Source of the DNA: Spirochaetaceae bacterium
Lineage (GTDB): Bacteria > Spirochaetota > Spirochaetia > SZUA-6 > Bin103
NCBI GenBank assembly: GCA_028820215.1
Contig: JAPPKD010000050.1
Coordinates: forward strand, 1 to 64,000
Direction of reading: 5' to 3'
Length of the DNA stretch: 64,000 nt
The notes below the pieces were generated by a model, which did not search any database, was not told the DNA's origin, and saw only the letters and a list, made by a program, of their open reading frames with translations. This document shows, one piece after another, positions 6,445-38,611 of this stretch (its first letter is position 1; every line of letters starts with the position of its first letter). The translations under genes were made by a program, and so were the position numbers.

Positions 6445-7185
6445 TCATTCCAGTCTGTTGTGAAGTGAACAGATAACCGCATCGACGCCCCGGTAGAACC
6501 AGCGCACGGGAGTCGGGGGCAAGCCGGTCCTTCGGAGGAGGTATCCGGCAGTACCGCCGAAGCGCTCCAGGACGCGACGGTGGTGCCTCGCTATCGGAGA
6601 CTCCCGGTCAGGCGCCTGCAGCCGGATCGTCACGGTTTGATCGATGCAGAACGGTGTGATCCCCGTGGCGCGCAAGAACCGTAAGCCCATCGGCTCATAC
6701 GCGCCCTGGTGGGATCTGATCGATCTCTTGAAGTGATGTGTCCATCCGCACCACACCATCATCTTCGAGTGCTTGGCGATCCCGCTGAATGCGGCGGCTA
6801 GGTTGAGGGCCTGTTGTTCGTCACGCTCGTTCAAGGAAGGCACGCGACCGGGACCGATGCGCTCCACATCGATCTCATACGCGTTCAGCGACCAGCCGTG
6901 TTCCAGCGCCGTCATCATCAGCGCTCGCAGATCGAATTGGGCCAGATAACCGCTGCCGGGCCCGAGGCGTAGCTCCCGGTTCGCTGCCGCTGCAAAGTCC
7001 GGCGTGAGAGCCTCCATCGCCAAGTGACGAACGCCTGCCGCGTGCGCGGGCGCGATCATCCGCACGCCGATGTCGCGCGTGCGCGTGCAGCGCCTCAAGT
7101 CGTCATGTCCCTCGTTCACCATGAGCACGCGACTTCCTGCGAGTCCGATCTCGACCAATTCCTCCGGGCTTCGCCATCGCGGCAT
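6445..7185 (-). CDS. Tiki/TraB/ChaN/EreA-like superfamily protein (tentative)
   Basis: A protein of about 246 residues, taking the ATG at 7185; the frame extends further upstream but there overlaps the CRTAC1 gene. The N-terminal VLMVNEGHDD followed by GVRHLAMEAL resembles the first motif pair (GE.H...gv..v..E) of the Tiki/ChaN/erythromycin-esterase-like superfamily. MVWCGWTHHFK matches the later histidine-bearing strand. This assignment is by eye. Members are metal- or heme-linked hydrolases or unknown. It is the last gene of the importer operon, starting 26 bases after the CRTAC1 stop, with a GGAGAAGGAGG stretch upstream. No signal peptide. Confidence 0.5.
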   Translation of the reverse strand: MPRWRSPEELVEIGLAGSRVLMVNEGHDDLRRCTRTRDIGVRMIAPAHAAGVRHLAMEALTPDFAAAANRELRLGPGSGYLAQFDLRALMMTALEHGWSLNAYEIDVERIGPGRVPSLNERDEQQALNLAAAFSGIAKHSKMMVWCGWTHHFKRSIRSHQGAYEPMGLRFLRATGITPFCIDQTVTIRLQAPDRESPIARHHRRVLERFGGTAGYLLRRTGLPPTPVRWFYRGVDAVICSLHNRLE

Positions 7186-7211
7186 CTCTACGCGGGGGCC
7201 TCCTTCTCCGA

Positions 7212-8921
7212 TCAGGGGCCCGGCTTTGCCGGCTCCTTGATGAGCAGCCGCTGGTTGGGCGCCACCTCGTTCAGAGTCTGGCGGGCGCCGCTCGGCCACT
7301 CGATCTCCACTGAGGCGATGTGCTCCAGGCCCGGTCCCAGGCCGAAGTGGGCGATCGCCTCGTTCTGGCCCAGGTAGTTGTTGCTGCCGCCGAGCACCTG
7401 CACCAGGCGCCGATCCGGCTCCGCCGCGCGCGGGGTGACGGTGATGCGCGCGCCGACCCCCTGCCGGTTGGACACCGTGCCCTCCAGCCGGAGTTGCAGC
7501 CAGCGGTTCGGCCCCGCGTGCCCGGGACGGTTGGTGTCGTTGCGGTAGAGCATCGGGCGGCCGCTGTTGTGCACGACCATCAGGTCCAGGTCGCCGTCAG
7601 GCTCCAGGTCGAAGGCCGCAAGCCCGGTGCCTACGCCGGTCGCCGTGAGCCCCTCCTGTTGCGCCACCTCCGTGAAGCGGCCGGTGCCGTCGTTGCGCCA
7701 CAGCCGCATCGGGTCATCTTCGAAGCCGGTCGTGTTGGCGGTGTAGGGGACCTCGTCGGCGTAGTCCACGCCGGTGGCCAGCACCAGGTCCAGGTCGCCG
7801 TCGTTGTCGTAGTCCAGGAAGGTGGTGCCCCATCCCCAGGAGCCGTCGCGCACGCCGGCGGCGTCGGTGGCGTCCTCGAAGAAGCCGCGGCCGATGTTGC
7901 GGTACAGCCGGTTGCCGTCGCGGTAGGGCACCCCCTCCTCGTAGATGGCGCTCACGAACCAGTCCATGCGGCCGTCGCCGTCGTAGTCGCCCACCGCCGA
8001 CCCCATGCCGTATTCGTCGGTGCCGACCCGCGCCCCGGTCGTGCCGTGCACGAAGCGTCCGTTGCCGCGGTTCCAGTAGAGCTGGCTGGCGTTGTGGTCG
8101 GCGACGATGATCAGCTCGGGATAGAGGTCGTCGTCGAGCAGGGCGAAGGTGGACGTCAGGCTCTGGCCCTCGGCCAGCGGGTTGACGGCGATGACGCGGT
8201 GCTGGGAGACGCCGGCGTAGCGGGTCACGTCCTCGAAACTGCCCGGCGCCTCCGCCCCGAGGTTGCGCAGCAACCGCGCATTGCTCTGCGCTCCCACGGT
8301 CATCTGGCGCAGGAATCGCCACTCGGTGGTGTGCAGGTCCAGGAAGCCGTCCAGGTCGTAGTCCCCAAAGGTGGCGCTGAATCCGAAGTGAAGGTCGTCA
8401 CCTTCCGTGGCGGCTCCACGCTCCACCGCCTCTTCGGAAAAGGAGCCCGCGCCGTCGTTCACGAACAGGTGGAAGCGGTGTGAGAAAAGGCTGGTGACGT
8501 ACAGGTCCAGGTCGCCATCGTTGTCGATGTCGCCCCAGGCGGCGCCGTTGGACTGCACCTCGGCCAGGTGGTCGGGGCCGAAGGCGGCAGCGGTGACGTC
8601 CGCGAAGGTGCCGTCGCCGCGGTTGCGGTACAGGATGTCGCTGTCGTCCAGGCGGGTCACGTACAGATCGACCAGTTCGTCGCCGTCGTAGTCGCCGGCC
8701 GCCACTCCGCCGGTCGTATAGGTCTGCATGGCCGCCGGAATGTCGTCCCCGCGCCGAAACTGCACGTAGTCGATACCGGCGGCGTCCGTCACGTCGTGGA
8801 AGGTCTGCGCCAACCCCGGCACCGCCGAGACGCAGGCCAGAATGGCGGCGAACAGGAACCCGATCACTCTGCGAGTGAGATTCGCTTCGCTCATTCTGCG
8901 AGTGAGATTCGCCGCGCTCAT
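7212..8921 (-). CDS. Secreted CRTAC1-family protein: FG-GAP/VCBS repeats plus ASPIC/UnbV domain
   Basis: A 569-residue exported protein. A signal peptide (VIGFLFAAILACVSAVPGLAQ) precedes at least six calcium-loop blades of the form DxDxDGxxD (GDYDGDELVDL, GDIDNDGDLDL, GDYDGDGRMDW, LDYDNDGDLDL and others), as in integrin-type beta-propellers. The C-terminal ASPIC/UnbV domain is seen in GVGARITV, QVLGGSNNYLGQNEAIAHFGLG and VEIEWPSG. The first 18 codons consist of two copies of a 27-bp palindromic repeat encoding S-x-A-N-L-T-R-R. Starts are possible at ATG 8921 (ATGA overlap with the permease stop), ATG 8894 or GTG 8867. Family members are surface or periplasmic and possibly bind glycans; the activity is unproven. 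Operon position suggests a job in import of the transported substrate. Confidence 0.9.
   Translation of the reverse strand: MSAANLTRRMSEANLTRRVIGFLFAAILACVSAVPGLAQTFHDVTDAAGIDYVQFRRGDDIPAAMQTYTTGGVAAGDYDGDELVDLYVTRLDDSDILYRNRGDGTFADVTAAAFGPDHLAEVQSNGAAWGDIDNDGDLDLYVTSLFSHRFHLFVNDGAGSFSEEAVERGAATEGDDLHFGFSATFGDYDLDGFLDLHTTEWRFLRQMTVGAQSNARLLRNLGAEAPGSFEDVTRYAGVSQHRVIAVNPLAEGQSLTSTFALLDDDLYPELIIVADHNASQLYWNRGNGRFVHGTTGARVGTDEYGMGSAVGDYDGDGRMDWFVSAIYEEGVPYRDGNRLYRNIGRGFFEDATDAAGVRDGSWGWGTTFLDYDNDGDLDLVLATGVDYADEVPYTANTTGFEDDPMRLWRNDGTGRFTEVAQQEGLTATGVGTGLAAFDLEPDGDLDLMVVHNSGRPMLYRNDTNRPGHAGPNRWLQLRLEGTVSNRQGVGARITVTPRAAEPDRRLVQVLGGSNNYLGQNEAIAHFGLGPGLEHIASVEIEWPSGARQTLNEVAPNQRLLIKEPAKPGP
8864..8920 (-). 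repeat. Tandem pair of 27-bp palindromic coding elements (NLTRR element)
   Basis: Two adjacent 27-bp units on the minus strand, each carrying an inverted-repeat core TCACTC-GCA-GAGTGA (the copy next to the ATG has GAATGA). They encode SAANLTRRM and SEANLTRRV in one frame. They hold the stop codon of the permease, the start codon of the CRTAC1 protein and its whole signal-peptide n-region. A third copy, 27 of 30 bases identical to the best unit, lies at 16763-16792 inside an unrelated enzyme and is read in the same frame. Confidence 0.85.
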
Positions 8922-9796
8922 TCCTTCACCGCACCCACCAGGATGCCCTTGATGAAGTAGCGCTGCAGGAACGGGTAGACCAGCACGATGGGAACGATCG
9001 TCACCATCATGGTCGCGAACTGCAGGCCGTCGGGGTGCAGGTAGTGGGAGGTGGATTCATTGACCATGGTTCGCGCCGCCTCGGTGGTGAAGTCGGCCAT
9101 GTTCGCCTGCTTGATGACCCGGACCAGCACCCCCTGCAACGTATCCAGCCAATCCGAGCGCGTAAAGTAGGCGGTGTCGAACCAGGAGCCCCACTGCGCG
9201 ACCGCGGCGAACAGCGCGATCACGGCGATCACCGGAGTCGAGATGGGCAGGTAGATCGCCCGGAAGACGCGCGCGTAGCCGGCGCCGTCCACGCGGGCCG
9301 ACTCCTCCAGGGAGACCGGGATCTGGTTGAACTGAGCCATGAAGATGATCACGTAGAAGAAGGAGAAGAGGTTCGGGAGGATGTAGACGGCGAACCGGTC
9401 GAGCAGGCTCAGAGCCCGCAGATTGAGGTAGATCGGGATCAGGCCGCCCGAGAAGAACAACGGGACCGTGAACAGGACCAGGTAGAGGTTACGGTAGGGA
9501 AGCTCCCGCTTGCGCAGCGCGAACGCGCACATGGCGCAGGTCAGCACCGTGGCCGCGGCGCCCACGACCGTCCGGCTGATCGACATCAGGAAGGCGTCCA
9601 GCAGCCGCCCGTTGCCGAAGATGATCCGGTAGTTGCGCAGGGTCAGATCCTCCGCGAGCAGCCATGCCGGACCGAAGATGAGCCCGCCGTTCAGGGAGTT
9701 GAGAGCGAAGTAATAGAGCGGATAGAGGATGCTCAGCGCCAGGATGAGGATCGGAACGTAGATGCCGAGGTACACTGCCAGTGTCGGCCGGGTCAT
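8918..9796 (-). CDS. Carbohydrate ABC importer permease, LplC type (second copy)
   Basis: A permease of about 292 residues of the LplC/CUT1 class, with six predicted membrane segments. The EAA loop is EESARVDGAGYARVFRAIYLPIS-like and the typical ending is RYFIKGILVGAVKE. I use the ATG at 9796 (MTRPTLAVYLG); the frame extends to 9838 without a ribosome site. It is a close paralog of the permease at 9908-10819 (shared LFFSGGLIP, FSFFYVII, SWFDT.YFTRSD and YPFLQRYFIKGIL). The importer thus has one LplB-type and two LplC-type subunits. Its stop overlaps the CRTAC1 start as ATGA. Inner-membrane protein pairing with LplB in sugar or oligosaccharide uptake. Confidence 0.92.
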   Translation of the reverse strand: MTRPTLAVYLGIYVPILILALSILYPLYYFALNSLNGGLIFGPAWLLAEDLTLRNYRIIFGNGRLLDAFLMSISRTVVGAAATVLTCAMCAFALRKRELPYRNLYLVLFTVPLFFSGGLIPIYLNLRALSLLDRFAVYILPNLFSFFYVIIFMAQFNQIPVSLEESARVDGAGYARVFRAIYLPISTPVIAVIALFAAVAQWGSWFDTAYFTRSDWLDTLQGVLVRVIKQANMADFTTEAARTMVNESTSHYLHPDGLQFATMMVTIVPIVLVYPFLQRYFIKGILVGAVKE

Positions 9797-9863
9797 GGAG
9801 GACCCTGGGAATCCGTCGGATTGGCGCGTCAGCGGCATATCCGGCGGACTCTCAGGGGAAGGT

Positions 9864-9907: not shown

Positions 9908-10819
9908 CTAACCCTTGATGGAGCCGATCAGGATGCCCTTGATGAAGTAGCGCTGCAGGAACGGGTAGACCATGACGATCGGGAGGACCGTGACCAGCAT
10001 GGTCGCGAACTGCACGCCCTCCGGATTGAGATGGTTCATGATTTGTTCATCCTGCAGGGCCGCCATTTCCTGGACGAAGCTGCCCAGGCTGCTCTGCTTG
10101 ATGATGCGCAGCAGAACCGCCTGCAGGGTCTCCAGACTGTCCGAACGGGTGAAGTACAGGGTGTCGAACCAGGAGTTCCATTGCGCGACGCCGGCGAACA
10201 GGGCGATGGCGGCGATCAGGGGCATCGAAATGGGAAAGTAGATCCTCACGAAGATGCGGAAGTAGCCGGCGCCGTCGATGCGGGCCGAGTCCTCCAGCGA
10301 CACCGGCACGTCGTTGAAGCTGGTCATCATGATGATGACGTAGAAGAACGAGAAAAGCTGCGGAAAGATGTAGACCCAGAAGGTGTCCAGCAGCCCGAGA
10401 AACCGGAAGTTCAGGAACATCGGAATCAGGCCGCCGGAGAAGAACAGCGGAATGGCGAAGATTACCAGGTACAAGTTGCGGAACGGCAGGTTGGGCTTGC
10501 GCAGCGCGAATGCGCACATCGCGCAGTTGAACACCGTGAACACGGTGCCGATTACGGTCCGGAGTGTCGACGTCGTGAACGCGGTCAGCAGGCGATTGTT
10601 GGCGAAGATCACCTGGTAGTTCCTGAGCGTGAAGTCCGGGGGCAGCAGGTACGCGGGACCGGCGTGGAGCAGGGTGTTCACGGAGTTGATCAGGTAGTAA
10701 TAGAACGGGTAGATGATGGAGATGCCGAGCACCACGAGCGGCGCGTAGATCCCGGCGTACATCAGTGGCGTGACTCGCCGGTGGTGAGCGAGGATCCCGG
10801 GATGGGCTCTTGAACCCAT
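9908..10819 (-). CDS. Carbohydrate ABC importer permease, LplC type (first copy)
   Basis: A 303-residue CUT1-class permease with six membrane segments and an EAA loop of the form EDSARIDGAGYFRIFVRIYFPIS. The start ATG at 10819 overlaps the stop of the LplB gene (ATGA), showing translational coupling. The C-terminus RYFIKGILIGSIKG is diagnostic of LplC proteins. It precedes a second, similar LplC gene separated by about 110 bases holding a hairpin. It should form the channel with LplB, energised by an MsmX-type ATPase encoded elsewhere, as no dedicated ATPase is in this operon. Confidence 0.93.
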   Translation of the reverse strand: MGSRAHPGILAHHRRVTPLMYAGIYAPLVVLGISIIYPFYYYLINSVNTLLHAGPAYLLPPDFTLRNYQVIFANNRLLTAFTTSTLRTVIGTVFTVFNCAMCAFALRKPNLPFRNLYLVIFAIPLFFSGGLIPMFLNFRFLGLLDTFWVYIFPQLFSFFYVIIMMTSFNDVPVSLEDSARIDGAGYFRIFVRIYFPISMPLIAAIALFAGVAQWNSWFDTLYFTRSDSLETLQAVLLRIIKQSSLGSFVQEMAALQDEQIMNHLNPEGVQFATMLVTVLPIVMVYPFLQRYFIKGILIGSIKG

Positions 10820-11793
10820 CAGAACAGCCCCTTGCCGGTGAGCCGCTTGCTGAGGTTGTTGACGGTCAGCAGGATCGCCAGGTTGATCACCGACTTGAAC
10901 AGGCCGGCGGCGGTGGCGTACGAGTAGCGGCCGTGCTCCAGCCCAACCCGCAGAATCAGCGTGTCGAAGATGTCCGACACCCCGCGGTTGAAGGGATTGC
11001 CGAGCACGAACACCTGGTCGAAGGTGTCGCCGGTGCCCTGCATGATCTGCGAGCAGCGCAGGATCAGCAGGATCATGAAGGTGCCGAGCAGGTGCGGCCA
11101 GGTGATGTGGATGGCCTTGGTCCAGCGCCCGCCGCCGTCGATCTCGCACGCCTCGTACATCTCCTGGTCGATGCCGGCGATCACGGCCAGATAGATGATC
11201 GACCCCCAGCCCACCTCCTTCCAGAAGTCGGAAAGGACCAGCAGCGGCCAGAAAAAGGTCTTGTCGGCGATCAGGTCCACCGGCTCGCCGATCAGCCCCA
11301 GGCCGAGCAGCAAGGCGTTGAACGGCGATTCCGGGGTAGGCCGCAGAAAGTTGTACATCATGCCGCCCACTACCACCCAGGAGATGAAGTGCGGGAGATA
11401 GGAGACGGTCTGAGCCGTCTTCTTGAAGCCGCGGTGAATCACCTCGTTGAGCATCAGGGCCAGCAGCACCGGCGGCAGCGACAGCAGCCCGAGCTTGAGC
11501 GCCGAGATGACCAGGGTGTTGCGCAGCACCACGCTGAAGTTGGGCGCCTTGAAGAAGTCGATGAAGTGCTCGAAGCCGTTGTTGAATGCCCACGGGCTGG
11601 CCCAGATGCCGGTGAACACGTCGTAGCGCTTGAAGGCGATGACGATCCCGTACAGCGGCAGGTAGTTGAAGAGGATGGTGGCCAGCAGCGACGGCAGGAT
11701 CATCAGGTGCAGCATGTGGATGCCGCGGTCGGCCCACGCTCGCCGCCTGCGCGTGAGATGCCTGGTCAGGGTCCGTTCGGTGAGCTCACTCAT
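10819..11793 (-). CDS. Carbohydrate ABC importer permease, LplB type
   Basis: A 324-residue permease of the LplB family: short arginine-rich cytoplasmic N-terminus (RHLTRRRRAWADR), first membrane segment LMILPSLLATILFNYLPLYG, and the typical FKRYDVFTGIWASPW and GF.HFIDFF..PNF segments. The EAA-like loop is IDQEMYEACEIDGGGRWTKAIHITWPHL. These proteins partner with LplC in uptake of complex saccharides. It starts after a terminator-like hairpin that separates it from the substrate-binding protein gene, so it is probably expressed at a lower level than that gene. Confidence 0.94.
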   Translation of the reverse strand: MSELTERTLTRHLTRRRRAWADRGIHMLHLMILPSLLATILFNYLPLYGIVIAFKRYDVFTGIWASPWAFNNGFEHFIDFFKAPNFSVVLRNTLVISALKLGLLSLPPVLLALMLNEVIHRGFKKTAQTVSYLPHFISWVVVGGMMYNFLRPTPESPFNALLLGLGLIGEPVDLIADKTFFWPLLVLSDFWKEVGWGSIIYLAVIAGIDQEMYEACEIDGGGRWTKAIHITWPHLLGTFMILLILRCSQIMQGTGDTFDQVFVLGNPFNRGVSDIFDTLILRVGLEHGRYSYATAAGLFKSVINLAILLTVNNLSKRLTGKGLF

Positions 11794-15858: not shown

Positions 15859-18800
15859 ATGCAGCAACTGCCGCTGATCGACGTCGCCGAGACGGAGCGG
15901 ATCGCCGCCCTGACCACCGCGCCCGGCACCTTTGCCTTCCGCGCCGACGCTGCCGAGAACCTCGACGGCCTGGTGCCCGACATCGGGCTGACCGGCAAGT
16001 ATCCGTTCCGCAGCGTGTACCGGCCGCGCAGCTTTGCCCGCGCCGGCCTGCCGGCCACGCTCACGCACCGGTTCTGGGACACCATCGACGGCACCGCCGA
16101 CCACACCGGGCGCCGCTGGCTCGGCGTGGTGATGTACGACGAGTACGGCTGCGAGTGCCCACTGGAGGTGACCCTGGGAGCCGACGCGATCGGCCGTATC
16201 GCGCCGTTCCGGCACGACAACCGGCGCCATCTCTACGTCCTGGACCGTCCCGTGGACTTCATGGGGGAGATGGAGGTGCTGCGCATCACCGGCACCGGTG
16301 ATGCGTCGTACCGCCTGGAGCACGTGCTGCTGCTCGACGCGCGCCCGGAGCCCACCTGCTACCGGCCGCGCGTCGACCGGCTGACCGCGCGACTGGGGTT
16401 GAGCCCGGACGGCTCATTCGCCGTGGCCGTCGATGCCACGACCTGGCCGGCGTCCCGCTGCAGCGTCACGGTGATCCGCGCCGATACCGGCGAATCGGTC
16501 GCCGAGGCGGCCGAGGAGGAGTCGCTGACCCTGCACTCGATCGACGTGACCGGGTTGCCGGAGCCGCCCGCGGCCGGGTATCGGGCGCGTGTCCGCGCGA
16601 CCGAGGCGGACGGGCTCGTGCAGACGGCGGAAGCAGCCGTGACCGGCGAGTCCGGCGCCGCAGCCGGCCCGGTGAGCGTGCCCGTGGAGCTGTACAACCT
16701 CGCCGGCGTCGAGTTGGCCGACCAGCCCATCACGTTCGGGGTACCCGTCCCGCGCGGCCGGGTGAGCGGAGCGAACCTCACTCGAAGAGTGATGGGCGCC
16801 GTCGAAGGAACCTGGGAATCGGCAGGCACGGCCACGCCGGTGCAGTGCCGGCCGCACGGTTTCTGGCCGGACGGATCGGCGAGCTGGATGCTCATAGACG
16901 GGCGCCTGCCGCGGGCGCTCGCGCCGGACGCTGATCTGGCCGGCACCGTGACCATCGGTCCCGCGGCCGCCGGCGCGCAGCCGCACGGCGCTTTGCGCTG
17001 CACGTCCGGCGACGGCGCCGTGACCGTGTCCGGGGGCTCGCTGCGCGTGAGCGTGACGGCCGGCTCGGTCGCGCCGCTGCCGGTGATCGAGACGCGGTCC
17101 GGCGCCAGCCCGTGGCGCGCGGCGCATGCCGGCAGCGCCGCCACGCTCACGCTGGGCAGCGGCGTGGATCTGTGCCAGGGGCCGATCCGGGACCTCGCCC
17201 TCGAAGAGGAGGGGTGGCAGCGCTCCGTGATCCGCTATCGCTTCGATCACCTCGACGGGGACGGGGTCGCGCACCTGACGAGCACCGTCCGCGTGCACGT
17301 GTACCGCGGGCTGCAGGCGGTCCGGATCGTGCACCGCCTGGAGGTCACGTCCCCGCACCTGCCGCCGGCCGCCGGCGGGACCGCCGAGGACATCCCGGCG
17401 GGCGCCGCCACCGCGCGGGACGCCATTGCCGGCACCGACGGCGAGCAGGCGACACTGCTGACGGTTCGAGGTGCGTCCCTGTGCATCAGCTGCGCCGGCA
17501 ACCGTGCGGTCCGGTGGCCTGACGCACCGGCGGATGGCGCCGACGTCCCGCAGGGCGGCGCCGTGCGCCTGCTCCACGACCACGATCAGGCCTACCGCGT
17601 CGAGAACGGCGATGCGCCGCGCGAGGTCGCCGGCCGCGTTCCCGGCCACGTCACCGTATGCGGCGACGCCGACTCCGAAGAGGGATCCGCGGATACGCTC
17701 ACCGTGGCGCTGCGGCGGTTCTGGCAGACCTGGCCGCGGGCCGTCCGGGTGAGCGGCGACGAGATCGCCGTGGAGCTGCTGCCGGCGCCGGCCGGAGCGG
17801 ACCGTCCCGCGGACGAGGAGAGCTGGCACCGCATCTACTTCTGGCTCCGCGACGACGGCTATCTGCTCAAGGCCGGAATGGCGCTCACCAGCGAGATCCT
17901 GCTGGCCTGCGGCCCGCGGGACGAGTCGCTGCTCGCCTGGTTCGAGCAGCCGCCGGCGGTGCGTCCGTCCCTCGAGTGGCTCAACCGATGCGGCGTGCTC
18001 GGCCCGCTGGCTGCCAAGGATACGGGTGTGCTGGACGCCTACGAACGTGCGCTGGACTCCGGGTACGAGCAGTGGATGGCCGACCGCGACATCTGGCGCC
18101 AGTACGGCTGGGTGAACTTCGGCGACTGGTACGGCGAGAGCGCCTGGTCGTGGGGCAACAACGAGTACGATCCGCCCTTCGCGCACTACAGCGAGTTCCT
18201 GCGCGGCGGCGATCCTCGGTGGTCCATCCTGGGCGCCGAGGCGGCGCGCCACCTGACCGACGTGGACACCGTCAACGCCTCCACGGACGCCACTCAGGTG
18301 GGCGCTCAGTATACCCACATGCCGGGCCACGCCGGCGGCTACCTGCCGCCGTACTTCCGCAGCAAGATGGGCGGTTCCTCGAGCGTGCCGTCGCACACCT
18401 GGGTCGAGGGGCCGGTGCTGCACTACCTGTTGACCGGCGACGAGAACCTGCGGGAGTCGCTCGACCGCACCGCCGGCTGGCTGCTCGGGGCGGGGCTCAA
18501 GGACTTCGCCGGCGGCATCCAGCACTACGACTTCGCCAATTGCCGGGAGTGCGGCTGGCATCTGATCCACCTCACCGCGCTGGCGCGCATGAGCGCCTCG
18601 CCCCGCTACCTCAACGCCGCCGCGCTGATCGTCGACCGGGTGCTCGGGCGGCAGGAGCCCGAAGGCGGCTGGGAGCGCGTTCTCAAGGAGGGCCACTGCG
18701 GGTGCGAGCCGCCGCGCGAGCGCGGCGAGGCCGGCTTCATGGTCGGGGTGCTGCTGTCCGGGCTGCGCCGGTATCACGAGCTCACCGGCGACGACCGGGT

Positions 18801-19128
18801 CGCGGAGGCTATCCTGGGCGGCGTGCGCTGGCTCATCCGCCGCACCTACGACGCCGACAGCGGCCACTTCCGCTACACGCCGTGCCTGCACCGGGGCGGT
18901 GGTCCGCAGGCCGTGTTCACCCGCCAGGTGGTCGAGGGCATCGCCTACGCCCACGCGCTGAACGGCGACGGCGAGCTGCGCGAGATCGTCGAGCGTGGCC
19001 TGCGCGATCTCGGCGATCTGCCTGAACCCTCCCCGGACTCCGACCACTCCGGCTTCGGAAAGGACTGGGCCAGCCAGACCCGCTACGTACCGTCATTGCT
19101 GGCCTACCTTGCCGGCACCGGACGCTGA
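15859..19128 (+). CDS. Exo-rhamnogalacturonan-lyase-like (PcRGLX/YetA, PL26-type) protein
   Basis: A large protein of about 1089 residues. A beta-rich N-terminal part (to about 270) is followed by a RIFT-barrel-like segment (VSVPVELYNLAG, ITFGVPVPRG), a central beta-sandwich and a C-terminal alpha/alpha toroid (from about 720: NFGDWYGESAWSWGNNEYD, SHTWVEGPVLHYL, GGIQHYDFANCRECGWHL). This order matches PcRGLX/YetA exo-rhamnogalacturonan lyases, which release disaccharides from rhamnogalacturonan I. Residues about 303-311 (SGANLTRRV) come from an inserted palindromic element. No signal peptide is seen. Start chosen where homology-like sequence begins (ATG 15859); the frame stays open upstream. 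Followed after 9 bases by an Ldh2-type gene. Confidence 0.8.
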   Translation: MQQLPLIDVAETERIAALTTAPGTFAFRADAAENLDGLVPDIGLTGKYPFRSVYRPRSFARAGLPATLTHRFWDTIDGTADHTGRRWLGVVMYDEYGCECPLEVTLGADAIGRIAPFRHDNRRHLYVLDRPVDFMGEMEVLRITGTGDASYRLEHVLLLDARPEPTCYRPRVDRLTARLGLSPDGSFAVAVDATTWPASRCSVTVIRADTGESVAEAAEEESLTLHSIDVTGLPEPPAAGYRARVRATEADGLVQTAEAAVTGESGAAAGPVSVPVELYNLAGVELADQPITFGVPVPRGRVSGANLTRRVMGAVEGTWESAGTATPVQCRPHGFWPDGSASWMLIDGRLPRALAPDADLAGTVTIGPAAAGAQPHGALRCTSGDGAVTVSGGSLRVSVTAGSVAPLPVIETRSGASPWRAAHAGSAATLTLGSGVDLCQGPIRDLALEEEGWQRSVIRYRFDHLDGDGVAHLTSTVRVHVYRGLQAVRIVHRLEVTSPHLPPAAGGTAEDIPAGAATARDAIAGTDGEQATLLTVRGASLCISCAGNRAVRWPDAPADGADVPQGGAVRLLHDHDQAYRVENGDAPREVAGRVPGHVTVCGDADSEEGSADTLTVALRRFWQTWPRAVRVSGDEIAVELLPAPAGADRPADEESWHRIYFWLRDDGYLLKAGMALTSEILLACGPRDESLLAWFEQPPAVRPSLEWLNRCGVLGPLAAKDTGVLDAYERALDSGYEQWMADRDIWRQYGWVNFGDWYGESAWSWGNNEYDPPFAHYSEFLRGGDPRWSILGAEAARHLTDVDTVNASTDATQVGAQYTHMPGHAGGYLPPYFRSKMGGSSSVPSHTWVEGPVLHYLLTGDENLRESLDRTAGWLLGAGLKDFAGGIQHYDFANCRECGWHLIHLTALARMSASPRYLNAAALIVDRVLGRQEPEGGWERVLKEGHCGCEPPRERGEAGFMVGVLLSGLRRYHELTGDDRVAEAILGGVRWLIRRTYDADSGHFRYTPCLHRGGGPQAVFTRQVVEGIAYAHALNGDGELREIVERGLRDLGDLPEPSPDSDHSGFGKDWASQTRYVPSLLAYLAGTGR
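16763..16792 (+). repeat. NLTRR palindromic element inside the lyase-like gene
   Basis: A 30-base copy of the element found twice at 8864-8920, differing at three positions. The hairpin core is TCACTC-GAA-GAGTGA. It is in frame and encodes S-G-A-N-L-T-R-R-V directly after the conserved TFGVPVPRGRV strand. No stop or frameshift is created, as expected of a protein-coding repeat. Confidence 0.85.
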
Positions 19129-20245: not shown

Positions 20246-21205
20246 TCACCCGCTCGCCGTCGGATGCCGTCCCTCGGGAGTCAGTGCGCGCACCGCTGAC
20301 AGGTGACTCCTGCTCACCGGCACCTCGTGGCCTCCCGTCACGCGCACGAACGTCCGCTCGTCACGCCGATAGACCGCCGTGATGTGGTCGTGGGCCACCC
20401 AGTACGAGCGGTGCACCTGCATCCCCATGCCTCCGAGCTCGGCGACGGCGTCCGCGAATCGCATCAGGATCACCCCTGACCCTTGGCTCGTAACGGCGTT
20501 CACGTAATGGCCACTGACGCTGAGGTAGACGACGTCCTGCCCCAGCTTCGCGGGGAGGCGGTCCAGAAACCGGACGTGCTGCTCGGTGGTGAGGCGGGCC
20601 GCTCCTGTTCGCGGCTCGCGCGGGTCGACGTCCGGGGGGGCGGCACGGTGGTCAGCGCCGGACACGGTCGGCGGAGGGCTCCCCACGGGGCCCTCCGAGG
20701 CCGGGCGCTCGGACGGCACCACCACGGCCCTGCGTCGGAGCTTGGCACGCACACAGACCGTGTACAGGAGGATGGAGTTGCATGCGGCGCCCCACGCGAC
20801 GGCGTTGAGGTAGATGTCCGGTAAGGCGGTGGGCCCCAGGCCGAACAGCTCGACCGCTGCGTAGCCGAGCGCCACGAGCGGAATGGCGACGAACAGCACC
20901 GACACGGCATACAGACCAAGGATCAAGGCCGGCGCCAGGTGCCGGGCGACATACAGCAGCATGGCGGTGGTCGAGTACCAGAGCGGCCATGCGATCGCTG
21001 CGCACAATCCCGTGAGCAGGAGACGCTGGCCGACGCGGTACATGGCGTCCGAGAACAAGGGACCCGTGGCGGAATAGACCAGGACTGCAGCGAGCGTGGT
21101 GCTGAGCGAGACCGCGACCACCGGCCACTCCAGCGTCTCCCTGTAGGCCGTTTGCAGGCAGCCGGCGCGCTTCCGGGTCCGGACGGTCTCCATCGCCCGG
21201 ATCAT
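20246..21205 (-). CDS. Membrane-anchored LytTR DNA-binding protein 1
   Basis: A 319-residue protein with four predicted membrane helices (about 27-46, 61-87, 92-121, 131-153), a charged linker and a C-terminal LytTR DNA-binding domain (about 212-308: DVVYLSVSGHYVNAVTSQG, MQVHRSYWV, VRVTGGHEVPVSR). There is no receiver domain, so it is not a classic response regulator; the membrane part probably senses the signal. The ATG overlaps the stop of paralog 2 (ATGA). It converges on the Ldh2 gene with 22 bases between stops. Last of four tandem paralogs transcribed on the minus strand. Confidence 0.92.
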   Translation of the reverse strand: MIRAMETVRTRKRAGCLQTAYRETLEWPVVAVSLSTTLAAVLVYSATGPLFSDAMYRVGQRLLLTGLCAAIAWPLWYSTTAMLLYVARHLAPALILGLYAVSVLFVAIPLVALGYAAVELFGLGPTALPDIYLNAVAWGAACNSILLYTVCVRAKLRRRAVVVPSERPASEGPVGSPPPTVSGADHRAAPPDVDPREPRTGAARLTTEQHVRFLDRLPAKLGQDVVYLSVSGHYVNAVTSQGSGVILMRFADAVAELGGMGMQVHRSYWVAHDHITAVYRRDERTFVRVTGGHEVPVSRSHLSAVRALTPEGRHPTASG

Positions 21206-22071
21206 CGCTGGGCGAGCGCACGGACGGCGGCAAGGTGGGTGCGACTCACCGGCAGCTCATGTCCCCCGGTGACGCGTATCAGGGTCCGTTCGTCGCGTCG
21301 GAAGACTCCGGTAATGTGGCGATGCGCCACCCAATAGGAGCGGTGCACCTGCATCCCGGTGTCCCCGAGGTCGGCGACGGCGTCGGCGAACCTCATCAGG
21401 ATGACACCGGCCCCCTCGGTGGTGACGGCGTTTACGTAATGGCCGCTGACGTTCAGGTAGATCACGTCCCGCCCGAGCTTGTCGGGGAGGCGATTCATGA
21501 ACCGGGTGGGCTGCCCTTGAGACCACTCGGCCCCCGTATCGCCGTCGCGGTGGGACTCAGCGTCGGCAGCCGTGACCGCCACCGGCTTCCCCGGGGGACG
21601 GTCGTCTTCGGGCGCGGAGTCTTCGGCAATGATGCGGTCCTCGGGGAGGACGGCTTCAGCGGTGTGGCGGAGCCTGGCGCGCAGGCAAGCCGTGTACATC
21701 AGGATCGCGCTGCACGCTGTCAACCCTACTCCGAAGTGAAGGTAGACCCTGAGGAATGGGACGTCGCTCAGGCCGAACAGCCCGATGACGGCATAGCCGA
21801 TTGCCGCGCCCGGCATGGCGATGTAGAGAATCGATGCAGCCCACGTAGCCAGGATCAGGTACGGCTGCAGGCGGCGCATCAGGTAGAGAACCGTGGCGAT
21901 CGTCGAATGGAAAACGGGCCAGCACACCACGGCACACATTCCTCCGAACAGCAGGCGGCGAACCGGGCCGCTGAGCGTCTCGTCGATGCCGAGCGCACCG
22001 GTGAGGGAATAGACCAGTGTTGCGCCGACGACCGTGCTCATCGAAACCCCGATCGCCGGCATCCGGAGCAT
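21202..22071 (-). CDS. Membrane-anchored LytTR DNA-binding protein 2
   Basis: Same architecture as its neighbours: four membrane helices, linker, LytTR domain (DVIYLNVSGHYVNAVTTEG, MQVHRSYWVAHRHI, IRVTGGHELPVSR). The first ATG (22071) falls inside the region that aligns with the amphipathic N-terminus of the paralogs. In-frame codons upstream still match (SCLHEAHKEML, compare GCLQTAYRETL), but no ATG, GTG or TTG occurs before a stop at about 22138. Translation may start at a CTG (22092) or the protein may be shortened by about ten residues. It overlaps the start of paralog 1. Confidence 0.88.
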   Translation of the reverse strand: MLRMPAIGVSMSTVVGATLVYSLTGALGIDETLSGPVRRLLFGGMCAVVCWPVFHSTIATVLYLMRRLQPYLILATWAASILYIAMPGAAIGYAVIGLFGLSDVPFLRVYLHFGVGLTACSAILMYTACLRARLRHTAEAVLPEDRIIAEDSAPEDDRPPGKPVAVTAADAESHRDGDTGAEWSQGQPTRFMNRLPDKLGRDVIYLNVSGHYVNAVTTEGAGVILMRFADAVADLGDTGMQVHRSYWVAHRHITGVFRRDERTLIRVTGGHELPVSRTHLAAVRALAQR

Positions 22072-22165
22072 CTCCTTGTGAGCCTCGTGCAGGCAGGAGC
22101 CGCCGGGGGAAGGGGGCGCGGCGCTTCGCCGTGGCTTTTATACTGCATCGTCAGCCCACTCGTGG

Positions 22166-23050
22166 TCAGGTACCCGGATGCTCGTCGTCGCCCTGCGCGA
22201 TCCGCGGAATCAAACCACGCACGGTGGTGAGATAGGTCCGGCTTACCGGCACCTCGTGTCCGCCGGTGACGCGCACGAGGGTTCGCTCGTCGCGACGGAA
22301 GATCTCCGTAATGTGTCGGTGCGCTACCCAGTAGGACCGGTGCACCTGCGTGCCCGACTCTCCAAGCTCGGCCACGGCGTCGGCGAATCTCATGAGAATC
22401 ACGCCCGAACCTTCGGTGGTGACGGCGTTTACGTAGTGGCCGCTGACGTTGAGATAGATCACGTCACGCCCCAGTTTCTCGGGCAGGCGATCCACGAATC
22501 TGGCAGGCCTTCGCGCGCCGCCGGAGCCGGCCGGCGCCCGCGGTTCGGAGGTCGCGCGGACGTCGTCAGCGGCAGCCTCCTCGGTATACCTGAGTTTGGC
22601 GCGCTGCCATGCCGTGTAGTGGATGACCGCGCAGCACGCGGCCAGCCATACGGTTGCGTTGAAGTAGATGTCCCAAAACCTGCCAGCAGCGTTGCGGCCA
22701 AACAGATCGAAGACGGAGTAGGCAATCGCCGTGTAGGGCATCGCCATGAACGGAACCTTGGCGACACACAGCAGAGCGATCACGTACGGTTTCCTGCGCC
22801 GGGAACAATAGAGCACGACGGCGCTGAGGGAGTGGCAGAACGGCCAAGCGATCAGGGTGCAGATGCAGACAAGGAAGAGGCGCTGCGCCGTGCTGAAGGA
22901 ATCGTCCCGGCCCAAGGGGCCGGTGACCGAATAGACCAGCGTCGCACCGACTGCCGTCGCGAGGGAGACGGCGATCACCGGTGGGTCGAGCACCTCGCCG
23001 TATGCCCGCTGCAGAAACCGACCCACATTGACTGTCCGGCCGCGAAGCAT
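22166..23050 (-). CDS. Membrane-anchored LytTR DNA-binding protein 3
   Basis: A protein of about 294 residues from ATG 23050 (MLRGRTVNVGRFLQRAYGEVLD), chosen because paralog alignment begins there; the frame runs 50 codons further up. Four membrane helices precede the LytTR domain (DVIYLNVSGHYVNAVTTEG, TQVHRSYWVAHRHI, VRVTGGHEVPVSR). The linker is shorter than in the others. It is separated from paralog 2 by 94 bases and from paralog 4 by 318 bases, so it could have its own promoter. Confidence 0.9.
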   Translation of the reverse strand: MLRGRTVNVGRFLQRAYGEVLDPPVIAVSLATAVGATLVYSVTGPLGRDDSFSTAQRLFLVCICTLIAWPFCHSLSAVVLYCSRRRKPYVIALLCVAKVPFMAMPYTAIAYSVFDLFGRNAAGRFWDIYFNATVWLAACCAVIHYTAWQRAKLRYTEEAAADDVRATSEPRAPAGSGGARRPARFVDRLPEKLGRDVIYLNVSGHYVNAVTTEGSGVILMRFADAVAELGESGTQVHRSYWVAHRHITEIFRRDERTLVRVTGGHEVPVSRTYLTTVRGLIPRIAQGDDEHPGT

Positions 23051-23368
23051 ATGCAAGAACGGATAGTGCCGAACGCAACGCGACGGGGGAAGTAGCGAAG
23101 CCGGGGCGGATGGCTCGGCGTCGCCATGCCATGCGACAGAACGGTGGTTCCAGCCGCGCATGCACAACAGGCCCCTTCCATTCGCCGCCCCTGGCTGCAT
23201 GAGTGACCTTCGCTCTGCGCGGACGCAAGCGGACGACGGCGTTTCTCGATCTCTGATACACGAATGCGATTCAAGAATAATCCCGTCGTTCGCGTAACAA
23301 CCGGCGATAGCGGCGTCTTGACGCGCGAGAATCGGTGTGCCACCGACAGACGGCCCGTCGCCGGGTTG
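23051..23368. other. 318-bp gap between LytTR paralogs 3 and 4
   Basis: No gene is supported here. The stretch at about 23250-23320 is noticeably AT-richer than its surroundings and includes a short inverted repeat GAAT-GCG-ATTC (23262-23272). This is a likely promoter/operator for paralog 3, but I could not fix -35 and -10 boxes. Confidence 0.4.
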
Positions 23369-24451
23369 TCAGACTCGGGGAGGAGGCTCGCTCGTCGGCG
23401 CCCCGGGAGGCGGCTCGATCTGTTGCCTCGTTCCGGGGTCACGGATGCGAGGGATGAGGGCGCGGACGGCCGTCAGGTAGGTGCGGCTCACCGGCAGTTC
23501 GTGCCCGCCGGTCACCCGCACCAGCGTTCGCTCGTCGCGCCTCAGGATCGCCGTGATGTGGCGATGCGCCACCCAGTACGAGCGATGCACCTGTGTTCCC
23601 ATGTCATCGAGCTCGGCGATGGCGTCGGCGAGTCGCATGAGCATGACCGCCGACCCCTGGGTGGTGACCGCATTGACGTAGTGGCCGTTCACGCTGAGAT
23701 AGATCAGGTCGTGTCCGATGTTCCCGGGCAACCGGTCCAGGAACCGGGAGCGTCCGGCGTTCGCGGGCCCGGTCTCGGCGCCGGATTGGTGTTGCCCGAG
23801 GGCCGTGGGACTCGGCTCGACGCCGGAAGGCGCTTCCGCCACATCACGATCTCCCGGTTCCGGGAGAGGCGTGCGGTCAGCTTCGGTCGCGGCTGTTGCG
23901 TGGGAGAGTGCCTCCGGCTCTCCGGCATGGAATGCTTCGGTGGCGGATCTGAGTCTGGCGCGCAGGCAGGCCGTGTAGTGAACGACGGCGCTGCAGGCTG
24001 CCACCGCCAGGGATACGCTGAGGTAGATGTCCGCAAGACCGCCTACATAGCTCTTGCCGGCAATCCCGAATATCGTATAGGCGACGGCGGAGCAGGCAAG
24101 CGCCACGAAGGCCGCTCCGGCGGCGGCCGCCACCACGATCTGATGCGGCTTTCGTCGACGTGCCACGTACAGGATCGTCGTGCTCAGGGAGTGGCAGAGC
24201 GGCCAGCAGATCAGGCCGCACAGCCCGACGTACAGAAGGCGAGTGCCCACCGCAACCGTGTCCTCGATACTCAGGGGTCCGGTGATGGAGTAGATCAACG
24301 TCGCGCCGACGACCGTGCAGAAGGAAACCAGAAGCACGGTCCCTTCCAGCATCTCCCGGTGCGCTCTCTGCAGGCAGCAGCCCCATTTCACGGGGAGGAG
24401 ATCGCCGTGCGCCGCACCTTGACGCGTGGCGTCGTCCCGGTTGCCGGTCAT
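23369..24451 (-). CDS. Membrane-anchored LytTR DNA-binding protein 4
   Basis: The first and longest of the array, about 360 residues from ATG 24451, which has a GGAG five bases upstream; the frame continues up to 24589. Four membrane helices are followed by a long linker rich in Glu, Ala and Pro (about 95 residues) and a LytTR domain (DLIYLSVNGHYVNAVTTQG, TQVHRSYWVAHRHI, VRVTGGHELPVSR), then a proline-rich tail. The conserved N-terminal CCLQRAHREMLEG segment is shared with the paralogs. No sensor kinase or receiver is nearby, so signal input is probably through the membrane domain. Confidence 0.9.
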   Translation of the reverse strand: MTGNRDDATRQGAAHGDLLPVKWGCCLQRAHREMLEGTVLLVSFCTVVGATLIYSITGPLSIEDTVAVGTRLLYVGLCGLICWPLCHSLSTTILYVARRRKPHQIVVAAAAGAAFVALACSAVAYTIFGIAGKSYVGGLADIYLSVSLAVAACSAVVHYTACLRARLRSATEAFHAGEPEALSHATAATEADRTPLPEPGDRDVAEAPSGVEPSPTALGQHQSGAETGPANAGRSRFLDRLPGNIGHDLIYLSVNGHYVNAVTTQGSAVMLMRLADAIAELDDMGTQVHRSYWVAHRHITAILRRDERTLVRVTGGHELPVSRTYLTAVRALIPRIRDPGTRQQIEPPPGAPTSEPPPRV

Positions 24452-24914
24452 GACGACTCCGCGCCGGCGCCGGGATCGCCGTCGATGACGCGCTGTCGAG
24501 ATTCCATGTGCGAAAGCTACCGTCCGATGGCTGGTCCGGCCACTGCGTTTTCGCGAATCGATGAGCGATGAAACGTGCGCATATTGCACGTAATAGAGAG
24601 GCGATGCCTGTCGATCACTCAGGTAAAATGACGCTCCTTCCGGATCGAGTTTCGTGCGCGAATGTCAGTCGCCATGCGTGAGATCGGCGTGGAACGGTCA
24701 TTCGCGGAGCGCGATTCGCCAAGTGGATTCGCGAAAAACTGGTGATTTACGTCAGGATCATGTCCGAGGGCGCGGCTGCGGCGCTCCGCCACGGTGGACA
24801 AGGCGGCTCAGCCCGTAGCAGGGTCGGTACATCGGCCGGTTCCACTCGGAGCGGGATGATCGGATCGTCTCGGCGCGCCGAGCCCGCGCGGTGAGGTCCG
24901 GAGGTCTGTGTGCA
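24452..24914. promoter_or_regulatory. 463-bp divergent control region of the LytTR array
   Basis: A non-coding region between the LytTR array (minus) and the ABC-class ATPase (plus), relatively AT-rich around 24540-24750. It contains GTTTTCGCGAATC at 24547-24559 and its near reverse complement GATTCGCGAAAAAC at 24726-24739, plus further ATTCGC copies at about 24700-24718. These are candidate operators. The GGAGGT before the ATPase start (ATG 24915) is the only clear translation signal. Confidence 0.5.
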
Positions 24915-37213: not shown

Positions 37214-38611
37214 ATGCTGCTGACGATCTCCACCACGCACCGGCCGGCGACCGACCTGGGGTACCTGCTGCACAAGCACCCGGACCGGGTGCAGGCGTTC
37301 GAGCTGCCCTTCGGGGCCGCGCACGTGTTCTATCCGGAAGCCGGCGAGGACTGCTGCACGGCGGCGTTGCTGCTCGACGTGGATCCCATCGCTCTCGTGC
37401 GCAGGCGCGGCGGCGGGCTGCTTCGGCACTACATCAACGACCGTCCCTACGTGGCCTCGTCGCTGCTGAGCGTCGCGATCGCGCAGGTGTTCGGGAGCGC
37501 GCTCGGCGGGCGCAGCAAGGAGCGGCCGGAGCTGGCGGCGCAGGCGCTGCCACTCACGGCCACCGTCGCCGCACTGCCGTGTCGCGGAGGCGAGGCGGCG
37601 GTGCGCCGCCTGTTCGAGCCGCTGGGCTACCGGGTCGACCTGGAGGATCCCGAGGCGGACCGGCCGCCCGACGACTGGGAGCGCGGCCCGTACCGCAACC
37701 TCACGCTCTCGGGGCAGCAGCCGCTGGCCGCGCTGCTGGCGCACCTGTACGTCCTGATCCCGGTGCTCGACGACGACAAGCACTACTACGTCGGTGAGGA
37801 CGAGCTGGAGAAGCTGCTGCGGCGCGGCGAAGGCTGGCTGGCCGACCATCCCGAGCGCGGGTTCATCACCGGGCGATACCTGCGTCATCAGCGCCGGTTG
37901 ACGCGCGAGGCGATCGCGAGGCTTACCGAAGGCGAGGGGGAGGGCGACGCCGATCCCGGCGCCACGCCGTGGCGGGACCCCGGCGAGGATTCCATCGAGA
38001 TGCCGATCCGGCTGCATGACCTGCGGCTGGAGGCGGTGAAGACCGTCCTCCGCGAGCACGGCGCGGCGCGCGTGCTGGATCTGGGCTGCGGCGAGGGCCG
38101 GCTGCTGCAGAAGCTCCTGGGCGTCGGCCAGATCCGGGAGATCGTCGGCATGGACGTGTCGGCGCGCTCGCTCGAGATCGCCGCGCAGCGCCTGAAGCTG
38201 GCGGCGCTCCCCGAGCGGCAACGGGAACGGATCCGGCTCCTGCACGGCGCGCTGACCTACCGCGACGCCCGCTTGGCAGGCTACGACGCGGCGGCGGCGG
38301 TCGAGGTGGTCGAGCACCTCGACCCGGATCGGCTTGCCGCGTTCGAGCGCGTGCTGTTCGAGTTCGCGCAGCCGGCGACCGCGGTCGTCACCACTCCCAA
38401 CCGGGAGTACAACGTCAACTTCCCGGGCCTGGCCTCCGGAGCGCTGCGGCACCCCGACCATCGCTTCGAGTGGACGCGAGCCGAGTTCGCCGCCTGGGCC
38501 GAGCGGGTCGCCGGCGCGCACGGCTACCGGGTCACGTTCGAGCCGATAGGCGGCACCGACCCCGAGCACGGCGCTCCCACGCAGATGGGGATCTTCCGGC
38601 GATGCAAGTAG
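37214..38611 (+). CDS. hen1: Bacterial Hen1: RNA 3'-terminal ribose 2'-O-methyltransferase
   Basis: A 465-residue protein matching bacterial Hen1. An N-terminal domain (about 1-240; MLLTISTTHRPATDLGYLLHKHPDR) in relatives supports the Pnkp ligase. A C-terminal methyltransferase (from about 275) has motif I VLDLGCGEGRLLQKLL. The metal-binding set is present: E363, E366 and H367 in EVVEHLD and the histidines of HPDHRFEWTR (413-416). It methylates the 2'-OH at the cleaved end before ligation, protecting repaired RNA against re-cleavage by ribotoxins. Its end overlaps the Pnkp start by 10 bases. Cytoplasmic. Confidence 0.96.
   Translation: MLLTISTTHRPATDLGYLLHKHPDRVQAFELPFGAAHVFYPEAGEDCCTAALLLDVDPIALVRRRGGGLLRHYINDRPYVASSLLSVAIAQVFGSALGGRSKERPELAAQALPLTATVAALPCRGGEAAVRRLFEPLGYRVDLEDPEADRPPDDWERGPYRNLTLSGQQPLAALLAHLYVLIPVLDDDKHYYVGEDELEKLLRRGEGWLADHPERGFITGRYLRHQRRLTREAIARLTEGEGEGDADPGATPWRDPGEDSIEMPIRLHDLRLEAVKTVLREHGAARVLDLGCGEGRLLQKLLGVGQIREIVGMDVSARSLEIAAQRLKLAALPERQRERIRLLHGALTYRDARLAGYDAAAAVEVVEHLDPDRLAAFERVLFEFAQPATAVVTTPNREYNVNFPGLASGALRHPDHRFEWTRAEFAAWAERVAGAHGYRVTFEPIGGTDPEHGAPTQMGIFRRCK

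Follow-up and report, generated by a model that had tools for sequence, protein, structure and literature searches.

How a secreted protein can come to begin with repeated DNA is the question raised by a gene at positions 7212 to 8921 (minus strand) of the window, the 64,000-nucleotide stretch of Spirochaetaceae DNA that was analysed here. The gene encodes an FG-GAP/UnbV_ASPIC protein of the CRTAC1 type (PF13517, PF07593). An earlier note on this DNA had proposed that two 27-bp units form the first 18 codons of this ORF, and both coordinates and translation bear this out, including the claimed peptide, which is MSAANLTRR from unit A (ATGAGCGCGGCGAATCTCACTCGCAGA, 8895-8921, minus strand) followed by MSEANLTRR from unit B (ATGAGCGAAGCGAATCTCACTCGCAGA, 8868-8894, minus strand). 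The two units are identical at 25 of 27 positions on the minus strand. Unit A is overlapped by the ATGA at 8918-8921 (minus strand), which combines the CRTAC1-type start with the stop of an upstream ABC permease gene (8918-9838, minus strand; BPD_transp_1 at 24.8 bits against a cut-off of 26.4, with its tandem paralogue at 9908-10828 scoring 31.8) and holds the left-hand TGA of the insertion. Unit B is closed by the GTGA at 8864-8867 (minus strand), which holds the right-hand TGA and the GTG of which is the start position in most unit-less orthologues. At its other end the ORF overlaps the one called at 6445-7299 (minus strand) by 88 bp (7212-7299), both being longest-frame calls, and we guess that the true start of this downstream gene lies later than called.

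The core of the unit, TCACTC-GCA-GAGTGA, forms six of six Watson-Crick pairs in unit B and five of six in unit A, where one pair is broken. With up to two mismatches allowed, this core gives five strand-matches at three places in the 64-kb window, and as 100 shuffles gave a mean of 0.27 and a maximum of 3, the copies are not due to chance. When the window is scanned with a 31-mer consensus, three places stand out at 31, 31 and 30 of 31, compared to 21 at the next-best place and to maxima of 20-24 in 30 order-3 Markov simulations, these high scores being partly by construction because the consensus was derived from the copies themselves.

The third copy, which is absent from the earlier note, is unit C (GTGAGCGGAGCGAACCTCACTCGAAGA, 16762-16788, plus strand), which encodes V S G A N L T R R, reads in frame as VSGANLTRRVM and is directly followed by a GTGA at 16789-16792. 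It lies within the first (RIFT-barrel) domain of a PcRGLX-like protein (15859-19128, plus strand; the start codon was picked by orthologue alignment). A search of 5.8 billion proteins, with 7991 candidates scored, returned 48 relatives of this protein, 28 of which were aligned with the window protein (29 rows). The window protein reads GVPVPRGRV-SGANLTRRV-MGAVEGTW and the 95% identical P0001 carries the identical insert, while the other 27 of the 29 rows, including the 90% identical P0002, have a nine-column gap at this site. In a tree of 19 rows, window protein and P0001 form one clade (100/100) with P0002 outside. An empty site can also be read in DNA from L001, a metagenome-assembled genome of an uncultured Spirochaetia bacterium (also designated G001), which is collinear with the window and 81-87% identical to it at the DNA level over the six longest blocks: where the window has CGG GTG, 27 extra bases and ATG, the syntenic DNA of L001 (79% protein identity) has CGC TTG ACG without an insert. 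The paralogue P0038 is 81% identical to another PcRGLX-type protein from G001 and carries GVVSEANLTRRVTAGN where that protein has DGAVTAGN. These are nine extra residues in the same frame at a different site, so that VSEANLTRRV stands where the relative has V alone.

Because relatives lack the units at the same sites, the alignments identify the copies in PcRGLX-like genes as nine-residue insertions relative to close relatives. Overall there are three insertion sites in two gene families with whole codons at each, and, in the aligned sequences, the frame is identical at each site and the flanking protein unchanged. In a structure predicted for the PcRGLX-like protein of the window (pLDDT 82.7 on average), residues 303-311, which form the insert, fall into a region between the strands 290-296 and 315-321 where pLDDT drops below 50 (305-313). 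This fits a harmless loop, although the low pLDDT may also reflect the small number of aligned carriers.

For the CRTAC1-type protein, 7953 relatives were returned, and the N-termini of 26 among the 120 matches listed were inspected. Two units are present in the window protein and in P0049, where the pair is decayed (MSGATLTRRMSAANLARRVIRF), and one decayed unit is present in P0050 (MNGAYLIRRMIRAWL). P0049 is 90% identical to the window protein overall and has exchanges at 4 of the 18 leader residues; the P0050 unit differs from unit B at 4 of 8 residues. Most other orthologues begin right before the hydrophobic core with MIRSWL, MIGSWL or MRWAWL (M-I-R, M-I-G, M-R), those designated P0060 and that of G001 have different, longer leaders, and the sequences of P0052, P0059 and P0069 begin too far in to judge the leader, P0069 being without its N-terminus. 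In this comparison 21 orthologue rows show no unit, among them P0052 and P0059, which start too far in to tell. The comparison with unit-less orthologues that the earlier note had suggested thus yields relatives without the unit at the same positions for both the PcRGLX and the CRTAC1 proteins, and judged by these alignments the two units in the CRTAC1-type gene are 18 codons that stand ahead of the start position of most relatives.

The CRTAC1 tree (28 of the 31 rows aligned, with the fragments P0070, P0071 and P0078 omitted) unites P0050, P0049, the window protein and P0069 in one group (93/89), the last three of which are together (97/97). The leader-unit label needs two changes on this tree when P0069, the N-terminus of which is missing, is scored as unit-less. 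This topology suggests that the leader unit probably entered once, before P0050 split off. In P0050 the second unit may never have been present, may have been lost or may be hidden upstream of the predicted start. Among the four genomes of G001's family, a CRTAC1 orthologue was found in one, G001 itself. At the start of this orthologue (L001 3881-4260, minus strand) the leader is lengthened by three tandem copies, the last one incomplete, of a different 18-bp unit, ACGATCGGATCGTGGCRG (TIGSWQ/R), and it perhaps grew from an ancestral MIGSW start. The same CRTAC1 n-region has been lengthened in two relatives, the window and L001/G001, by different repeats.

Since the L001 leader demonstrates that tandem growth occurs at this position, and since the CRTAC1 pair in the window is arranged head-to-tail, it has to be considered that each gene duplicated coding DNA of its own, in tandem or by slippage, with no mobile element involved. 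As regards the initial insertion at each site, this view conflicts with the fact that the same 27-bp sequence stands in unrelated genes whose relatives have nothing similar there, and as a general account we regard it as very improbable; for the second CRTAC1 unit it may apply. An artefact of assembly or binning could be suspected in a single window that is probably metagenomic, but the peptide recurs, with substitutions, in the separate clusters P0001 (13 member sequences), P0049 (85) and P0038 (3), which makes this extremely improbable.

The earlier note had also described the units as carrying both the permease stop and the start codon. The ATGA does overlap unit A, but both positions are old, and that the element supplied them is not supported. 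The permease and its tandem paralogue stop at the same codon position after RYFIKGIL (GILVGAVKE-stop and GILIGSIKG-stop), with TGA in the permease and TAG in the paralogue, and because of this shared position the permease stop position is old. Likewise the start beside the hydrophobic core is old, because most unit-less orthologues start directly there. Thus, the ATGA was probably the site that was entered and not a gift of the repeat, and the overlap would have pre-existed. The junction upstream of the CRTAC1 orthologue in L001 differs and consists of TAG and a short gap. The permease genes of the window are tandem duplicates (8918-9838 and 9908-10828, minus strand), and L001 shows one, which adjoins its CRTAC1 orthologue.

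The proposal that the positively charged n-region is made of repeat DNA held up, and in the window the repeat provides the only positive charges of the signal peptide. The predicted net charge of the signal peptide is 0 when counted from GTG 8867 and +3 from ATG 8921, and it is +1 or +2 in the eight unit-less orthologues counted. None of the possible starts ATG 8921, ATG 8894 and GTG 8867 has a well-spaced ribosome-binding site as judged by eye. An AAGGA abuts ATG 8921, which would fit a coupling to the permease. TRR-VIGFLF was also considered as a twin-arginine export signal, but it fits that motif weakly and this reading was rejected.

At both sites that can be read in DNA, the insert has TGA on both sides, GTGA/GTGA for unit C and ATGA/GTGA for the CRTAC1-type gene. 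The idea that GTGA is the target at every one of the three sites had to be abandoned, since the G001 relative of P0038 reads GTC ACC, i.e. TCA and no TGA (this is the DNA of the relative, the carrier being known as protein). A TGA target can thus be inferred from two sites, with the relative of P0038 reading TCA instead. Four of the unit's six reading frames are open, and the open TGA and TCA classes in the 38 window ORFs taken as genes number 436 (NTG|A), 89, 438 and 100. That three of three sites fall in NTG|A has P = 0.069 under window codon usage, if all three had a TGA target, and because target and codon usage already give this value, selection on the peptide is not required to explain the shared frame. 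The earlier note had named copies in all frames that usually disrupt their genes as counter-evidence; what was found in the CRTAC1-type gene, the PcRGLX-like gene and P0038 are copies in unrelated genes that are in frame and non-disrupting, although at this P value the uniform frame is weak evidence. Palindromic is a weak designation for the unit: the core is perfect in two of three copies, but the hairpin is no stabler than shuffles of the same bases (z with DNA parameters: unit B -0.07, copy C -0.45, A+B pair +1.07, surrounding 91 nt -0.05). The dyad symmetry is real but weak.

These data also bear on the view that the ANLTRR peptide itself is under selection, so that units are kept and copied between genes for a function, for example as basic export leader. 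One frame is used at all three sites, RR is retained in eight of eight units compared, decayed ones included, and the sole positive charge of the window signal peptide comes from the repeat. However, two of the three sites are internal to PcRGLX-type proteins and are not leaders, the shared frame is obtained at the above probability from target and codon usage alone, the leader of P0049 and the unit of P0050 have diverged as described, and 21 orthologue rows (with the reservation made for P0052 and P0059) do without the unit. We therefore think that selection on the peptide is quite unlikely to account for the distribution of the unit.

The unit is not found only at the CRTAC1-type gene, as the third window copy at 16762-16788 and the inserts in P0001 and P0038 demonstrate. 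The exact 31-base pattern had no match in a genome collection of 84,980 species, and the three unit patterns had none each in viral contigs. Plasmids gave three records with 19-bp stretches (E = 4) and phages two records of one phage (E = 5), none of which spans 80% of the query. Approximate matches were found neither in five genomes including G001 (up to three mismatches) nor in 26 genomes of G001's order (up to two mismatches). Among 392 Spirochaetota genomes, an even draw from a larger group, one match with up to three mismatches appeared, in G192 with three mismatches, which was called chance, as about 3 to 4 are expected for uniform bases by our own arithmetic. In 400 kb of G001 the consensus reached a maximum of 21 of 31. 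A peptide search with residues 1-40 gave ten candidates, none at E <= 10, and its sensitivity was poor, given that it also missed P0049. Rfam had no match for the unit at gathering scores, and a literature search gave no match to its peptide or DNA strings. None of the papers listed for protein-coding palindromes in spirochaetes reports the unit in its title or abstract opening. As far as these searches reach, the unit would be confined to one lineage outside the genomes searched. All three window copies lie inside genes, the 64 kb with its two insertion loci being the whole DNA sample, and if two loci per 64 kb were typical, one may guess from this one window at about 156 loci per 5 Mb (an assumed size; 95% range 19-564).

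Some further repeats and genes were observed along the way. The region C1:1-400000 of G001 (L082-L101) holds about 62 copies of overlapping 14-mers, for example CGGCCCCATTGAAA and GCGCGGCTTGTGAC among the top repeated 14-mers, which looks like a large CRISPR array. In the window, four consecutive LytTR-domain genes with 75-80% identical 293-bp stretches occupy 20246-24589 (minus strand), a region with no DNA match in the collinear L001, the flanking blocks of which nearly touch. A bacterial Hen1-Pnkp RNA repair pair (TIGR04074, TIGR04075) is located at 37214-41163 (plus strand).

Taken together, we think it likely that the 27-bp unit is a short repeat of a mobile-like kind, spreading into the coding sequences of a single uncultured lineage of Spirochaetia. 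The unit would enter TGA-containing sites and leave a direct repeat of 3-4 bp, for a net gain of 27 bp that preserves the reading frame. A copy ending in RTGA would re-create its own target, from which a head-to-tail pair could arise, slippage being equally able to produce it. At the permease/CRTAC1 junction, the unit would have entered the pre-existing ATGA overlap, and an entry there would let stop, start and translational coupling survive while the protein gains an arginine-bearing n-region. Inside genes, the unit would survive where it lands in a loop. With 27 bp and without visible machinery, the element is short for a transposable element, a Pfam scan of 36 window proteins found no transposase domain, and the moving machinery would have to come in trans.

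A sharper form, which is compatible with such a mobile-like repeat, would be a REP-like element that is moved by a RAYT or IS200-IS605-type tyrosine transposase via a single-stranded hairpin. In its favour are the 27-bp length, the terminal stem-loop (6-bp stem, 3-nt loop) and the presence of copies within genes, which PMC3733652 also describes for REPs. However, GTAG and CGTC are absent from both strands of the A+B block and of copy C, no transposase domain occurs in the 36 window proteins scanned, and the stem, which has a broken pair in unit A, is weak as a whole, so that we regard this form as possible but doubtful. Going further, one may picture a minimal transposing element of 27 bp, or nine codons, for gene-dense DNA, which targets RTGA and re-creates it, keeps stop, start and coupling at ATGA, and within GC-rich genes, where most TGA lies in the NTG|A frame, would be read in a frame in which it is open and encodes a bland, soluble peptide. 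This idea is speculative and in our opinion rather unlikely; if true, such a minimal element could fill coding DNA with nine-residue inserts and provide new basic secretion leaders.

That repeats inserted in frame can give rise to new protein sequence is already known from Rickettsia, from Wolbachia and from REPs inside genes. The present case offers filled and empty sites in closely related proteins, and one of its insertions gave a signal peptide a new charged start. The question at stake is whether elements choose frame-sparing sites or whether selection leaves only those.

Mycobacterial interspersed repetitive units (MIRUs) have DTGA as target and are longer than the 27-bp unit. According to PMC12548453, they insert at start codons with a -4 nt overlap, by which coupling is kept, and carry an ORF that is coupled to the downstream gene. 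The unit may resemble them in its position at an ATGA stop-start overlap, which applies to one of three sites (8918-8921), the other two being inside genes. It differs in having no ORF of its own, in being fused in frame to the CRTAC1-type gene and in occurring also inside genes. PARCELs are, according to PMC2996958, dyad-symmetric DNA that encodes a repeated peptide and is thought to be mobilised. Dyad symmetry and an encoded repeat peptide are shared by the 27-bp unit, but in PARCELs the tandem motif has 25 residues and lies in ORFs of unassigned function, whereas the unit encodes nine residues in PcRGLX-like and ASPIC-type proteins.

The earlier note had been reminded of the palindromic elements of Rickettsia (RPEs), which, according to PMC10969869, are short in-frame repeats of about 150 bp in unrelated protein genes, the flanking protein being kept. 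The way of working is indeed the same, with in-frame insertion in unrelated protein genes also here (three sites, two gene families), but a kinship is unsupported, as the unit is without CGTC and its host belongs to the Spirochaetia and not to Rickettsia. R. conorii RPEs end in CGTC, RPE-4 and RPE-6 have been equated with short CGTC REPs, and Wolbachia counterparts are cited as well (PMC3733652). The size of 27 bp versus about 150 bp is therefore no separator on its own, given these short REPs. For the GTAG and CGTC super-families of REPs, the same article describes stem-loops of 20-40 bp, some of them inside ORFs, and its authors deemed N-terminal and modular positions likely harmless. REPs are numerous and mostly extragenic, and the GTAG type comes with a RAYT transposase in the genome. 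The unit cannot be called the smallest of its kind, since intragenic REPs of equal shortness are described there. With its 27 bp it is similarly short and, in the copies found, intragenic; its 6-bp stem is perfect in two of three copies, though no stabler than shuffles. It differs from REPs in lacking both tags on either strand, in its TGA at both ends and in its head-to-tail pair, compared to the head-to-head dimers that predominate in the table of PMC3733652. It falls outside the families that bear a GTAG or CGTC tag, and short intragenic palindromic repeats as such are already known.
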